From Bacteroidetes bacterium GWF2_35_48 (GTDB taxonomy: Bacteria > Bacteroidota > Bacteroidia > Bacteroidales > GWF2-35-48): a stretch of 47,163 bases of DNA. Location: assembly GCA_001769125.1 (NCBI GenBank), contig MEOG01000134.1, forward strand, positions 1 through 47,163, in the 5' to 3' direction. The notes under the pieces were generated by a model. It ran no database searches. It worked only from the letters and a program-made list of their open reading frames with translations, and was not told the origin of the DNA. Made by a program: the position numbers and the translations under genes. Within the stretch, counting starts at the first letter, position 1; every line of letters begins with the position of its first letter. Of the stretch, positions 6,925 through 40,304 are shown piece after piece.

Positions 6925-7235
6925 AAATAAGTGTTGTTAGTACAATCCACGAAAATAAATATTAAATCAAGAATAACAAAATTTTTATAAATGATTTCTG
7001 AAAAGGAAGAAAATTGAGTCCACTCCGAAAACCTTCTGCTACAGATTTTACAGGTTGTCAAATATACTTAAATTCTTTACCTTTAGGTTGCAGGTTACAA
7101 GTTGCAAGTTGCTGACAACATGTAACTTGCAACTTGTAACTAATAGTGAAAATGTTAAAATATCATACGTTTACAATATAAATATTTGACTCATCAGAAC
7201 TGTTTTATGAAGGGGTTCAGAGTGAATTCAATAGG
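6925..7235. repeat. Spacer filled by a degenerate palindrome with GTTGCAR heptamers
   Basis: This 311-base spacer holds no gene. Its centre is a perfect 17-bp inverted repeat (7094-7110 with 7124-7140, 13-base loop) made of 7-base units GTTACAA/GTTGCAA and their complements. Further out, GTCAAATAT (7057-7065) faces ATATTTGAC (7183-7191), and imperfect outer arms sit at 7015-7032 and 7211-7228, so about 214 bases form one nested, decayed palindrome. There is no T-run after the hairpin, so it is not a standard terminator. Confidence 0.7.
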
Positions 7236-7997: not shown

Positions 7998-8036
7998 TAT
8001 AAATTCATTACCAATCTTATTTACTCGCTTTACGCA

Positions 8037-8188
8037 GATTGTTTTTTGACACGAATTTCACTAATGTTTTCGTTTTAATTTGTGTAATTTGTGTCGAACT
8101 TTTTGACTTTGCTGATGCACACTAATTAGACGTGTTTTATTATAATATTTTATTGTAATGCAATTCGTGATAATTAGTGTCAAAATGT
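8037..8188. repeat. Imperfect inverted repeat of the TTTTGACACGAATT type
   Basis: The 208-base spacer between mqnA and pgi has TTGACACGAATTTCACTAAT near its left end and, in reverse orientation, a variant reading TTTTGACACTAATTATCACG at its right end (about 8163-8187). The two arms share the TTTTGACAC core and rearranged CACGAAT/CACTAAT words. A further short TTTGACACGAAT copy is present upstream of gpsA (about 11050-11062). I see no gene here. Confidence 0.5.
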
Positions 8189-8205
8189 TTTTTACGTAAC
8201 ATCAG

Positions 8206-9555
8206 TTATTTGCCTAGTTTTTCAAGAATTTTTTGTGTGGCTTCTTCATGACCGGGTTTTCCCAAAAGCGCAAACATGTTACTTTTATAGGCTTCAACTC
8301 CCGGCTGGTCGAATGGGTTTACATCAAGAATGTATCCACTGATTCCGCACCCGATTTCAAAAAAATATAAAAGTTGTCCTACATAGAATTCATTGAGCTT
8401 TGGAATTTCAATATGAATATTTGGAACACCTCCGTCAACATGCGCAAGAATAGTTCCAAGTTCAGCCATTTTATTTACCTCGTCAAGTGGTTTTTCTGCA
8501 ATGAAATTCAGTTTGTCAAGGTCTTTAATGTCTTTTGGAATTATCAGTGTATTATTCGGTTCTTTAACAGAAATTACGGTTTCAAAAATGTTTCGTATAC
8601 CCTCTTGTATATATTGACCCATAGAGTGAAGATCTGAAGTAAAATCAACACTTGCAGGAAAAATTCCTTTTTTTTCTTTTCCTTCACTTTCTCCATATAA
8701 TTGTTTCCACCATTCAGCTAAATAATGCAGCTTAGGATTATAATTTACCATTATTTCCGTTGTGCGTCCGGTTTTATATAAAGCATTTCTTGCAGCAGCA
8801 TAAATTGAAGCAGGGTTTTCACTAAATTCTGAATTAATATCCGTGATTTTTTGCATTGTTTTAGCACCTTCCAATAATTCTCTGATATTGAAACCTGCAA
8901 TAGCAATAGGAAGCAAACCAACAGGCGTAAGCACAGAGTAGCGACCACCAACATCATCAGGAATTTCAAATGTTTTATATCCTTCTTTATCGGCAAGTTG
9001 TTTCAACGCACCTTTTTGAGCATCTGTAATTGCAATAATCCGTTCTGTTGCTCCATCTTTTCCATATTTTTTTTCCACAGCCTGTTTCAATAACCTGAAT
9101 GCTATGGCGGGCTCTGTTGTAGTTCCGGATTTTGATATGACAACAACAGCAAATTCTTTATTGTTTAAAAATTCAAGAAGTTCGTAATGGTAATCCTCGC
9201 TGAGGTTTTGACCGGCAAAAACAACCAAAGGGTATTCACGATCTTTTTTGAAAAAAGAAAAATTACCAGACAAAGCTTCAATTACTGCTTTTGCTCCAAG
9301 ATAAGAGCCTCCGATACCAATAATTACTACCACTTCCGCTTTTCCTTTCAAAGATTTCGCAATCTTCTCAATATCTTTTATTTCTTTTTCTGTAATTACA
9401 GAGGGCAGATTAACCCATCCAAGAAAATCGTTGCCTTTACCTGTTTTGTTATACAGCGCATCAATATGCCGTTCGGTTTCTTTTTTGTAATTATCTACTG
9501 TTGTACGCGATACAAAATCCTGAATTTTTTCAATGTTGATTTTTAAGTTTTCCAT
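8206..9555 (-). CDS. pgi: Glucose-6-phosphate isomerase
   Basis: The 449-residue protein is a short, Bacillus-type phosphoglucose isomerase that interconverts glucose-6-phosphate and fructose-6-phosphate. The sugar-phosphate binding SIS-fold motifs are clear: [16 protein letters not shown] (about residues 80-95) and [16 protein letters not shown] (about 138-153). The signature [17 protein letters not shown] and the C-terminal [12 protein letters not shown] with the catalytic lysine are intact, as is the [13 protein letters not shown] region containing the catalytic glutamate. The length matches this subfamily. It is flanked by repeat spacers on both sides and is probably monocistronic. It supplies the central branch between glycolysis and sugar-nucleotide synthesis. 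Confidence 0.97.
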
Positions 9556-9618
9556 ATTTTTAGATTTTTGATTTTTTCTGACGTGCGCTTATTTTACTTG
9601 GTTTATTCATAATTTTTT

Positions 9619-9914
9619 CAGTCTTCAGTCCGCAGTCTTTAGTCCACAGTCTTTAGTCCACAGTTTTCAGTCTTCAGTCCGCAGTCTTCAGTCCGCAGTC
9701 TTTAGTCCGCAGTCTTCAGTCTTCAGTCCACAGTCTTCAGTCCACAGTCCTCAGTCCTCAGTCTTCAGTCTTTAGTCTTCAGCCTTCAGCCTTCAGCCTT
9801 CAGCCTTCACGACTGCCGACTGCCTGACTGGAGACTCTTTAGACTGCCTAACTGCCTGACTGCCGACTGGAGACTCTTTCGACTGCCAACTGCCAACTTT
9901 CTGACTGCCGACTA
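9619..9914. repeat. Heptamer array: 27 CAGTCNN units, then GACTGNN complement
   Basis: From 9619 to 9807 the DNA is 27 consecutive 7-base units of the form (C/T)AG(T/C)(C/T)NN, mostly CAGTCTT, CAGTCCA, CAGTCCG and CAGCCTT, with no insertion or deletion breaking the 7-base phase. From 9810 to 9914 it switches to the reverse-complement motif, GACTGCC and variants, with looser phase. The two halves could pair into a long imperfect hairpin. It fills most of the 381-base spacer between pgi and gpsA. There is no spacer-repeat alternation, so it is not a CRISPR array. Confidence 0.95.
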
Positions 9915-9936: not shown

Positions 9937-10935
9937 TTATTTTAGTTTACCTGTCAATAATTTTATTTCCATAGCGGGTGAAATTTTTTCGTACAATATA
10001 TTATAAACAGCATCAACAATGGGCATGTTTACCTGAAATTTTTTATTCATTTCATGAATACACGCTGTTGCATAATATCCTTCCGCGATCATGTTCATTT
10101 CCATCATAGCCGATTTTACTGAATATCCTTTTCCGATCATAGCGCCAAATGTTCTGTTTCTGCTGAATTGAGAATATGCCGTAACTAAAAGATCGCCCAA
10201 ATAGGCAGAGTTATTAATTTTCAGTTTAGCCCCCGGGATGGTTTTATCAAGAAAGCGTTTCATTTCCCTGATACAATTAGATACAAGCACTGCCTGAAAA
10301 TTATCGCCATAGCCTAATCCTACACAAATACCTGCTGCAATGGCAAAAATATTTTTTAACACTGCCGCATATTCTGTTCCATAAATATCTTTTGTGAAAC
10401 GAGTCTTTAAAAACCGGCATTCCATTTTTTCTGCAAGTATGCTGGCCGTATGTTGATTTTGAGAGCCCAACGTTAGATAAGACAGGCGTTCCAGTGCTAT
10501 TTCCTCAGCATGACAGGGTCCTGCAATAATTCCTATTGAGGCAATTGGTACCTGATAATGCTGTATGAAATAATCGGCAATTCCAATATTTTCGTGAGGG
10601 ATGATTCCTTTTATTGCAGAAAAAATTATTTTATCTTTTAATGAAATTTTAAGATTTTTTAATGAGTCATGCAGAAAAGCTGAAGGGATAGCAAAAATAA
10701 GCAAATCAGAATTTTCCACAGCCTTGTTGATGTCATTGAAAAAATTAATTTTTTCTGCCGGAAGCGCAAGCGATGTAAGATATTGCGGATTATGTCCGTG
10801 CGTTTTAATATGTGTAAGAATTTCATTTCTTCGAATATACCAATTTATCTTTTCAGAATTATTTAATAACAATCTGACAATAGCAGTTGCCCAGCTTCCG
10901 CTTCCAATAACTCCTATTCTTGGTTCTCTCTCCAT
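9937..10935 (-). CDS. gpsA: NAD(P)-dependent glycerol-3-phosphate dehydrogenase
   Basis: The enzyme reduces dihydroxyacetone phosphate to sn-glycerol-3-phosphate for phospholipid synthesis. From the chosen ATG it has 332 residues, the usual family length. It begins with a Rossmann motif (RIGVIGSGSWATAIVRLL), followed by SAIKGI, the IAGPCHAEEIA loop, the catalytic-lysine segment YAAVLKNIFAIAAGI, and FSRNRTFGAMIGKG. The open frame continues upstream to 11073 and would add 46 residues with a hydrophobic stretch. I reject that start because normal members begin just before the Rossmann motif, and a TAnnTTTG box (10996-11003) lies within the extension. A good Shine-Dalgarno is absent, as is common in this phylum. 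Confidence 0.94.
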   Translation of the reverse strand: MEREPRIGVIGSGSWATAIVRLLLNNSEKINWYIRRNEILTHIKTHGHNPQYLTSLALPAEKINFFNDINKAVENSDLLIFAIPSAFLHDSLKNLKISLKDKIIFSAIKGIIPHENIGIADYFIQHYQVPIASIGIIAGPCHAEEIALERLSYLTLGSQNQHTASILAEKMECRFLKTRFTKDIYGTEYAAVLKNIFAIAAGICVGLGYGDNFQAVLVSNCIREMKRFLDKTIPGAKLKINNSAYLGDLLVTAYSQFSRNRTFGAMIGKGYSVKSAMMEMNMIAEGYYATACIHEMNKKFQVNMPIVDAVYNILYEKISPAMEIKLLTGKLK

Positions 10936-10995
10936 GATTAAATTTCTTTTTTCGTAATTTTTTTCTCTCCTTTGTTGCTCATAATATTTATATCC

Positions 10996-11003
10996 CAAAT
11001 ATA
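10996..11003 (-). promoter_or_regulatory. -7 promoter box upstream of gpsA
   Basis: On the minus strand TATATTTG matches TAnnTTTG, about 60 bases upstream of the chosen gpsA ATG. A TTG lies 15 bases further upstream, shorter than the usual 19-21, so only the -7 box is well supported. Confidence 0.45.
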
Positions 11004-11062
11004 TTATATTTAAGAATACAATAAGTGAGACCGCTATGAAAAGATTTTTTTTTGACACGAAT

Positions 11063-11138
11063 CTTCCTGCCAAATCAGCTGGAGCACAAAATCAAATATT
11101 GAGATCATCCCGAAAACCAGCCTGCGTCTGGCAGGAAG
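11063..11138. repeat. Inverted repeat CTTCCTGCCA / TGGCAGGAAG
   Basis: Ten-base arms at 11063-11072 and 11129-11138 are perfect complements, 56 bases apart. They sit in the 355-base gene-free stretch upstream of gpsA (10936-11290), next to a short TTTGACACGAAT copy. A short open frame on the minus strand (11034-11291) covers this area but looks like repeat-derived noise, so I do not call it a gene. Confidence 0.5.
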
Positions 11139-22225: not shown

Positions 22226-22260
22226 TGTCTTTTAATATCTAATGTTACGCAAAATGATTT

Positions 22261-22396
22261 TTTGTCGGAAGTCCGAAGCGATCTTGCTCTACAGTCTACA
22301 GTCTGACTGACTGCCGACTTTTTGACTGCTGACTTCCGGCTTCCAGCTTCCGGCTTCCGGCTTCCAGCTTCCGGCTTCCGGCTTCTGACTTCCAAC
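22261..22396. repeat. Heptamer array in the kinase/murF-alr spacer
   Basis: Nine consecutive 7-base units of the form (G/A)(G/A)CTTCC/T run from 22331 to 22393, preceded by GACTG words (22305-22330). Their complements, CGGAAGTC and ACAGTCTACAGTCT, occur on the left at 22266-22304. The array is a smaller member of the CAGTC family at 9619-9914. Confidence 0.85.
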
Positions 22397-37951: not shown

Positions 37952-38139
37952 AATAATATAAATTAAGGTTTATTAATATCCGAAGCAAATGTAATTATTC
38001 AAATTTAAGTGAACTAAGAATATGATGAAAGTCAATGATAATTTGAAAATAAAATAACGCAATGCAACCAAAATGAATTAGGACTAACATGCATTTTGAA
38101 ATTTTAATGTATTTTTACAAAGTAATGATGGAGGTATAG

Positions 38140-38346
38140 TCGGCAGTCGGCAGTCGAAAAAGTCGGCAGTCAGCAGTCAGCAGTCGGCAGTCGAAAAAGT
38201 CGGCAGTCAGACAGAATGCAGACTGTAGACTGAGGACTGAGGACTGTAGACTGTAGACTGTAGACTGTAGACTGTAGACTGTAGACTGTAGACTGTAGAC
38301 TGTAGACTGTAGACTGTAGACTGTAGACTGTAGACTGTAGACTGTT
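38140..38346. repeat. Heptamer array (CAGTCNN then 18 GACTGNN units) upstream of rsmI
   Basis: The left part (38140-38210) has CAGTCGG and CAGTCAG words broken by two GAAAAAGT interruptions. The right part (38221-38346) is 18 unbroken heptamers: GACTGTA once, GACTGAG twice, GACTGTA fourteen times and a final GACTGTT. The two parts are reverse complementary in their CAGTC/GACTG core. It lies in the 421-base divergent spacer, ending 26 bases before the rsmI ATG. A shadow open frame reading SLQSTVY repeats on the minus strand is not a gene. Confidence 0.95.
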
Positions 38347-40180: not shown

Positions 40181-40289
40181 TTGCAGGTTGTTTGTGGTTG
40201 CAGGTTGCAGGTTGTGATAGTTTCGTCTCAATGAAGGCACGTTGGAGAGAGGATGTACGCTTACCTTGGCAACTTGTGCAACCTGCAAC
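40180..40289. repeat. GTTGCAG heptamer repeat with opposing CAACCTGCAAC arm
   Basis: GTTGCAGGTTG occurs at 40180-40190, 40197-40207 and 40204-40214 (the last two in a 7-base phase). Its exact complement, CAACCTGCAAC, is at 40279-40289. The arrangement repeats the left-arm/right-arm design of the spacer at 7081-7141. Confidence 0.85.
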
Positions 40290-40304
40290 AAAAATTAAAT
40301 TTTT

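Follow-up and report, generated by a model that had tools for sequence, protein, structure and literature searches.

The heptamer array between gpsA and pgi in Bacteroidetes bacterium GWF2_35_48 is probably a member of a modular repeat family dispersed in the genome and descended from a MITE-like element, that is, a non-autonomous element with terminal inverted repeats (TIRs). The locus is best read as a modular repeat, now decayed, that derives from a MITE and has heptamer arms. The array lies in a stretch of 47,163 nucleotides that was analyzed as a whole (the window) and that makes up contig C134 of a 5.98-Mb, 142-contig genome (G000). Both flanking genes, gpsA (9937–11073) and pgi (8206–9555), are on the minus strand, and the gene content of the window resembles that of Bacteroidota, with a MurF/alanine racemase fusion and proteins with partial matches to PorE-type and CHU_0125 proteins. 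The features discussed below are collected in table 1.

Table 1. Repeat features of the window and one hairpin from the sister genome
Feature	Position	Strand	Remarks
First arm, 27 units (Y)(N)CAGTC, indel-free	9617..9805	+	gpsA-pgi spacer, faces pgi start
Opposed arm, GACTGCC-type units and 8-9 nt T-rich units (GACTCTTT, GACTGGAGACT)	9811..9913	-	
Terminal inverted repeat, T-rich end, CTAATGTTACGCAAAATGATTTTTT	22239..22263	+	starts the 22261 copy; PWM 33.6
Interior of the 22261 copy: GTCGGAAGTCCGAAG, CTTGCT, two CAGTC units, GACTG units, CTTCCGG/CTTCCAG heptamers	22264..22393	+	
AGTCGGC-type arm with AGTCGAAAA units	38138..38210	+	second composite copy, upstream of rsmI
Part of second composite copy	38220..38345	-	upstream of rsmI
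Element with the same terminal inverted repeats, no CAGTC-type heptamers inside	8024..8205	.	adjoins pgi stop codon
GTTGCAR heptamer hairpin, period 7, opposed arms, unit unlike CAGTC	7087..7141	.	
GTTGCAR heptamer hairpin	40192..40294	.	67-nt loop
ACCGATT heptamer hairpin	L209 1162-1358 (G001:C241)		G001 pgi-gpsA spacer

An earlier note on this DNA had described 27 heptamers in unbroken phase, two of whose positions vary freely, followed by their complement. Both the unit count and TRF (period 7, 27.6 copies, 0% indels) bear out the indel-free array at 9617–9805, and the GACT-type units at 9811–9913 bear out the flip in strand sense. The variable positions proved to be restricted: the core has an invariant A and G (27/27 units), the first variable position is T in 17 and C in 10, and the second is T in 19, G in 4 and A in 4. 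The opposed arm is likewise real, but it is not an indel-free complement, its unit spacings being 7, 8 and 9.

This array has many counterparts in the genome. Triples of CAGTCNN number 437, against 43 for the pattern read backwards, a control that may match related repeats and does not give a pure noise level. A DNA search of the genome with the 9619 spacer gave at least 54 matches, counted in the best 40 of 90 candidates that were scored. We sampled 40 stretches, 37 around search matches and 3 at contig starts, and found 49 clusters of AGTC/GACT units in 684 kb including the window, of which 42 have two arms; as stretches were chosen around matches and only 40 of the 90 candidates were scored, these 42 copies are a sample and not a census. 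Three of the seven one-arm clusters are pieces of split two-arm copies. The genome-wide count that the earlier note had proposed thus reveals a dispersed family with a recurrent flip rather than isolated microsatellites, and the outcome that it had named as contrary evidence, ordinary slippage without a flip elsewhere, is not what we find, given a flip in 42 of the 49 clusters. As a separate observation, a 640-bp one-arm GACTGNN array without an opposed arm is located at L064 7555–8194 (G000:C54).

The two-arm copies share a plan. The AGTC arm precedes the GACT arm in 42/42, and the arms differ in type in 40, one being mostly AGTC[CT][AT] and the other mostly AGTC[AG][AG] on the opposite strand, with 2 unclear and 0 alike. 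Spacing in the AGTC arms is 7 in 323 of 338 cases, and 11 of the remaining 15 are multiples of 7, whereas the 483 spacings of the GACT arms include 318 of 7, 59 of 8 and 66 of 9; the 8–9 nt units of these arms are common to different loci. Better-preserved copies start with the T-rich end CTGATGTTACGCAAAATGTTTTTT, often followed by GGAAGTC heptamers and GCTTTGCT, continue with (CAGTCYW)n and then GACTGCC and 8–9 nt T-rich GACT units, and close, often after CTTCCGAC heptamers, with the end TTCCACAATTTGCGTAACATCAG. The unit numbers of the two arms are uncorrelated (Spearman −0.08, p 0.63, 42 copies). Copies are short, with 62–507 bp between the outermost units, and the only ORFs that overlap them (in 9 of 42) encode 80–152 amino acids, with no transposase gene inside; a coding role is therefore unlikely, as the earlier note had held. 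The fixed arm order, the unlike arms, the shared 8–9 nt units and the TIRs beside 26 of the 42 copies imply a single composite ancestor, in whose descendants each arm slipped on its own.

The TIRs (CTGATGTTACGCAAA...TTTGCGTAACATCAG) were scored with 25-nt weight matrices, for which 12 and 11 ends taken from other loci served as training sets. Of the 42 composites, 23 are adjoined by the T-rich end, 19 by the other end, 16 by both and 26 by at least one; the 99% null threshold allows about 0.4 chance matches per end, and with the flanks reversed the counts were 0 and 2. No end was detected by weight matrix at 16 copies, namely 9619–9914 (scores of 1.6 and −7.7 against thresholds of 9.14 and 7.16), 38138–38345 and 14 further ones. 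With at most one mismatch, CTGATGTTACGCAAA occurs at 24 sites in the genome and its backward control at 0, and ATGTTACGCAAAATG at 27 sites and its control at 2. The motif was first spotted by eye beside arrays and then searched for, and its discovery is not independent of them. Clean elements with both ends occur at L069, L070 (64 bp) and L071. Near the 9619 array, CTGACGTGCGC at 9578–9588 is at most suggestive of an end.

Some elements with these ends lie between target duplications. Among 21 short elements, 20 of them in a Chitinophagaceae MAG and one in a Cyclobacteriaceae MAG, 11 are flanked by exact 7-bp duplications, against 1.1 with permuted flanks, and 7- or 8-bp duplications flank 4 of 8 in G013, which belongs to another family of the same order (permuted 1.0). 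The interiors of the elements in these three genomes form other hairpins, not CAGTC heptamers. In the present genome, 2 of 5 in the TIR-only set carry duplications (permuted 0.6), and array copies carry 0/16 exact and 3/16 near ones (permuted 1.1).

The probable mover is a transposase of the IS701/ISAba11 group. A contig scan for CTGATGTTACGCAAAWTG across genomes yielded 51 stretches: 27 in the Chitinophagaceae MAG nzgw143, 6 in the Bacteroidota MAG Yes70-14, 2 in Candidatus Parabeggiatoa HSG14, 2 in Methylococcaceae GLR68 and 14 singles, some of which may be due to chance. In a Yes70-14 stretch (L100) an ORF follows the end; its 117 residues hit NCBIfam NF049921 (IS701 family) at 1.7e-33, short of the cut-off since the ORF is a fragment. 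Full-length relatives on plasmids pass that cut-off with 338.8 to 357.7 bits versus 250, and one of them is annotated as ISAba11 group. The transposase genes at L138 and L139 are flanked by CTGATGTTACGC and GCGTAACATCAG; L140 has a left end that runs into the start codon, and this end was left unscored. The family TIR is therefore found beside IS701-family transposase genes at L138–L140 and L100, that is, the ends are shared with an autonomous element. In the present genome, a search with L138 at E up to 1 found no such transposase, which for an assembly of 142 contigs is a weak negative; a search with the L100 fragment, equally weak and uninformative by itself, also found none. Taken with the 0/16 exact duplications, these results indicate that movement is old or that the partner is missing from the assembly. 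Like MITEs of the IS701/ISAba11 group, the copies have the TIR CTGATGTTACGC that is common to NF049921 transposases; unlike them, they are tandem-heptamer inside and mostly decayed, with no autonomous partner found in the genome.

We propose that an IS701/ISAba11-type transposase would have moved the elements long ago, after which the arms would have lengthened and shortened independently by 7-nt slippage steps that kept the phase. Older copies, including 9619–9914 and 38138–38345, would then have lost recognizable ends while their arrays stayed recognizable. The arrays thus resemble interiors of old MITE-like elements that slippage has expanded. With less assurance, we suggest that copies may be transcribed with the genes as long imperfect hairpins, of which one orientation is tolerated or favored.

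The earlier note had suggested comparing array positions with gene orientation and modeling the hairpins, and both analyses uncovered an asymmetry. With genes taken as ORFs of at least 80 amino acids, longest first and without a gene finder, it is the CAGTCYW arm that borders the downstream gene start in 26 of the 29 composites between co-directional genes (p 1.5e-5). Among the 42 copies, 12 more lie between divergent genes and 1 between convergent genes; the latter is not a significant depletion (1/42 versus 10/92 control spacers, p 0.17). Copies about 4 kb apart on C85 and 10 kb apart on C46 point opposite ways, each with its genes, and because copies flip with the genes, transcription is favored over replication as the cause of the bias. 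The mRNA-sense strand is the more stable by energy in 41/41 copies (those over 420 nt were dropped, leaving 41 of 42) and has the lower z score in 36/40, with means of −6.98 and −4.24 (30 shuffles each; copies over 320 nt dropped). At the 9619 locus the plus strand folds with z −5.75 as RNA and −3.07 as DNA, and the minus strand, over a slightly shorter core, with z −10.5. These models fit predicted hairpins in transcripts with one orientation favored or tolerated and with a putative function. No such bias is seen in nzgw143, where 9 elements have the same and 6 the opposite orientation, so the bias is not a property of the ends; among 13 TIR-only elements, oriented by eye, 6 are opposite and 2 the same.

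The uncorrelated arm lengths argue against selection for a matched stem. Tentatively, and with more doubt than belief, we consider that the repeat may be in service, or policed, at the RNA level in the form of expandable, heptamer-stepped mRNA hairpins upstream of genes; as parts of the same tentative proposal, the GGCAGTC arm would always come first with the GACTGTA arm beside the downstream start, and the arms would be asymmetric because the mRNA strand can form G-U pairs that its complement cannot. Rfam models matched two tRNAs as the sole hits in the window, with no structured RNA family at the arrays. An intrinsic terminator was rejected as a role, since by sequence alone it is A-runs, not T-runs, that follow the hairpin in the favored orientation. 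The Bacteroidota −7 box is TAnnTTTG; of 23 copies, 7 have this motif within the T-rich end or farther out, versus 7.4% of random 115-mers. The enrichment is suggestive of a built-in promoter, which we do not claim, as one spacing alone fits by eye.

Other repeats were found in the window and elsewhere. The earlier note had ascribed the CAGTC core and the flip to two further spacers, and the one at 38140–38346 is indeed the same composite (38138–38345). The other, at 22261–22396, does contain about two CAGTC units followed by GACTG, but it is mostly a CTTCCGG heptamer array; its T-rich end at 22239–22263 scores 33.6 against a 99% null threshold of 9.14 and has 0 mismatches to ATGTTACGCAAAATG. 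The ends of the element at 8024–8205 score 21.2 and 19.8 by weight matrix; its interior reads GACACGAATT...GTGTC, and that of L084 is similar. The GTTGCAR hairpins of the earlier note are real, the arms at 7094–7110/7124–7140 being complementary at 17/17 positions and those at 40192–40209/40277–40294 at 89%. At L033 4549–4727, L059 5815–5900 and L067 8554–8600, GTTGCAG heptamer arms enclose a small palindrome (TTTCGACTCCGCTCAA or GGTTGAGCGTAGTCGAAACC), and heptamer arms thus flank a further dispersed repeat. Arrays of AATTNNN type are also numerous (L032 9496–9600, L041 18627–18695, L166 3816–3868 and others); some of their units, like TTAGGAA, resemble the TTANTAA target, and L084 adjoins such an array. 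In the 40 array-centered stretches plus the window, period 7 accounts for 116 segments and 8293 bases, and period 11 is second by bases, with 28 segments and 2471 bases.

A different origin, which we regard as unlikely, is that the arrays are ordinary heptanucleotide repeats (STRRs or long SSRs) born in place and that the shared ends mean that some of them arose inside MITEs. Heterocystous cyanobacteria contain STRR heptamers, species-typical 7-nt tandem repeats between genes, which to our knowledge are described without composite opposed arms or TIRs; being intergenic tandem 7-nt units, the arrays here fall within the definition of heptanucleotide SSRs or STRRs. A birth in place would agree with the dominance of period 7 among tandem arrays, whose units are many and unrelated. 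In 354 kb sampled from contig starts, 7 arrays have period 7 and 5 have period 14, no other period from 3 to 20 is represented by more than 2 arrays, and a Markov control has 0; the units in this genome include AATTCNT, GTTGCAG and CATGTTT. Since period 7 is the commonest across unrelated units, a general tendency to expand heptamers exists beside the element. Stand-alone arrays are present in this genome (L034, L064), and relatives carry short one-arm CAGTC arrays without a TIR. CAGTC triples occur in 8 of 41 genomes, and in the same set TIR counts are clearly above background only in G000 (24) and G013 (27), with controls of 0; all five G013 array loci examined lie outside TIR elements, and G001, G021, G028 and G040 have CAGTC arrays with TIRs at background, which counts against the descent from MITE-like elements that we prefer. 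From genome to genome, the link between CAGTC arrays and TIRs is loose. The sister genome G001, of the same genus and 69–74% identical over pgi/gpsA and other compared genes, also has pgi and gpsA as neighbors, and its spacer contains a different heptamer hairpin with the unit ACCGATT and a GC-rich loop. Its spacer upstream of rsmI has no array and a different upstream neighbor, no heptamer array was apparent on reading either in the spacer that follows the DUF6973 gene or in the one that separates the OmpA/TPR and menaquinone genes, and the histidine kinase and murF genes are not adjacent. Arms born in place would not be expected to keep one order in 42/42 copies, to be unlike in 40/42, to share 8–9 nt units or to have TIRs beside 26/42, and it is these traits that lead us to favor descent from a composite element.

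The earlier note had raised two mechanisms. Putative protein-binding sites, with two arms placing a protein in both senses, would account for the constant AGTC core, its restricted neighbors and the position near gene starts, but we consider this very improbable, as the unit number per arm varies widely, the copies in the window adjoin housekeeping genes without a common theme and the pattern of descent needs no binding protein. Fold-back copying (template switching) of one arm into its complement would explain the flip itself and may apply to the GTTGCAR hairpin at 7094–7140, whose arms match at 17/17 positions including the order of variants. For the CAGTC copies it is scarcely credible: the arms differ in unit length and, in 40/42, in spacer dinucleotides, and their unit numbers are uncorrelated, so the suggestion that one arm was copied from the other is not supported.

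The earlier statement that no named feature type has these traits was too strong. In the literature searched, with most subscription journals outside our reach, we found no description of the CAGTC family, and the published repeats that it most resembles are the Xanthomonas heptamer arrays with opposed orientation (PMC4692102) and BOX elements (PMC3049150). BOX in streptococci is a composite, MITE-like interspersed repeat with fixed ends, variable tandem modules, strong RNA structure and a TIR that resembles an IS (PMC3049150). The fixed ends and variable number of tandem modules recur here as a resemblance of plan only, likened by description and not by sequence, whereas the modules here are 7-nt units in two opposed arms; furthermore, BOX is over-represented between convergent genes (PMC3049150), where the copies here show the nonsignificant deficit given above. 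For GGGAATC in Xanthomonas and GGGGA(C/T)T in Nostoc, hundreds of intergenic heptamer arrays that differ between related species are reported, with 70 and 75 cases of array pairs convergent on opposite strands, and three tandem heptamers are mentioned for Calothrix (PMC4692102). Those arrays are likewise intergenic heptamers with two opposed arrays, but the copies here lack G-runs and have unlike units in each arm and TIRs, and in Xanthomonas the two strands, relative to genes, carry about equal shares of the arrays (30% and 35%; PMC4692102), in contrast to the 26 of 29 that face one way here.

TAACTGA direct repeats, reported in Beggiatoaceae, Cyanobacteria and some Bacteroidetes (PMC4679880), are also intergenic 7-nt tandem arrays near gene starts in partly the same groups, but they have another unit, short arrays and one inverted case. 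Here the junction of target and TIR (TTANTAA then CTGATG) spells TAACTGA in 46 of 86 exact sites, among which loci may overlap, and we treat its identity with the Beggiatoaceae heptamer as a lead only. Among the loci retrieved, (TAACTGA)3 occurs once, within an array of L041, and nowhere beside a TIR. That the 7-nt period derives from the 7-bp duplication of this transposase group, through the target TTANTAA and the junction TAACTGA, has in our judgment a very small chance of being right: duplications are of 7 bp in the Chitinophagaceae set and of 7 or 8 bp in G013 and G000, and most heptamer families are unlike the target, so we keep it as a side idea. Both heptamer papers relay the idea that a 7-nt unit reflects polymerase contact (PMC4692102, PMC4679880).

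Heptamer arrays recur in distant bacteria without an agreed origin or role. Arrays inside recognizable mobile-element ends, as at 26 of the 42 copies, provide a test case for insertion versus birth in place, and this test case extends to the rate of slippage and to how the downstream gene responds to the orientation and length of the hairpin. A strong gene-orientation bias like the one found here is not described for the arrays of Xanthomonas (PMC4692102). We suggest that such arrays be annotated as element remnants before they are read as regulatory motifs. If the tentative proposal of a service or policing at the RNA level were true, the genome would contain dozens of hairpins whose length could tune neighboring genes.
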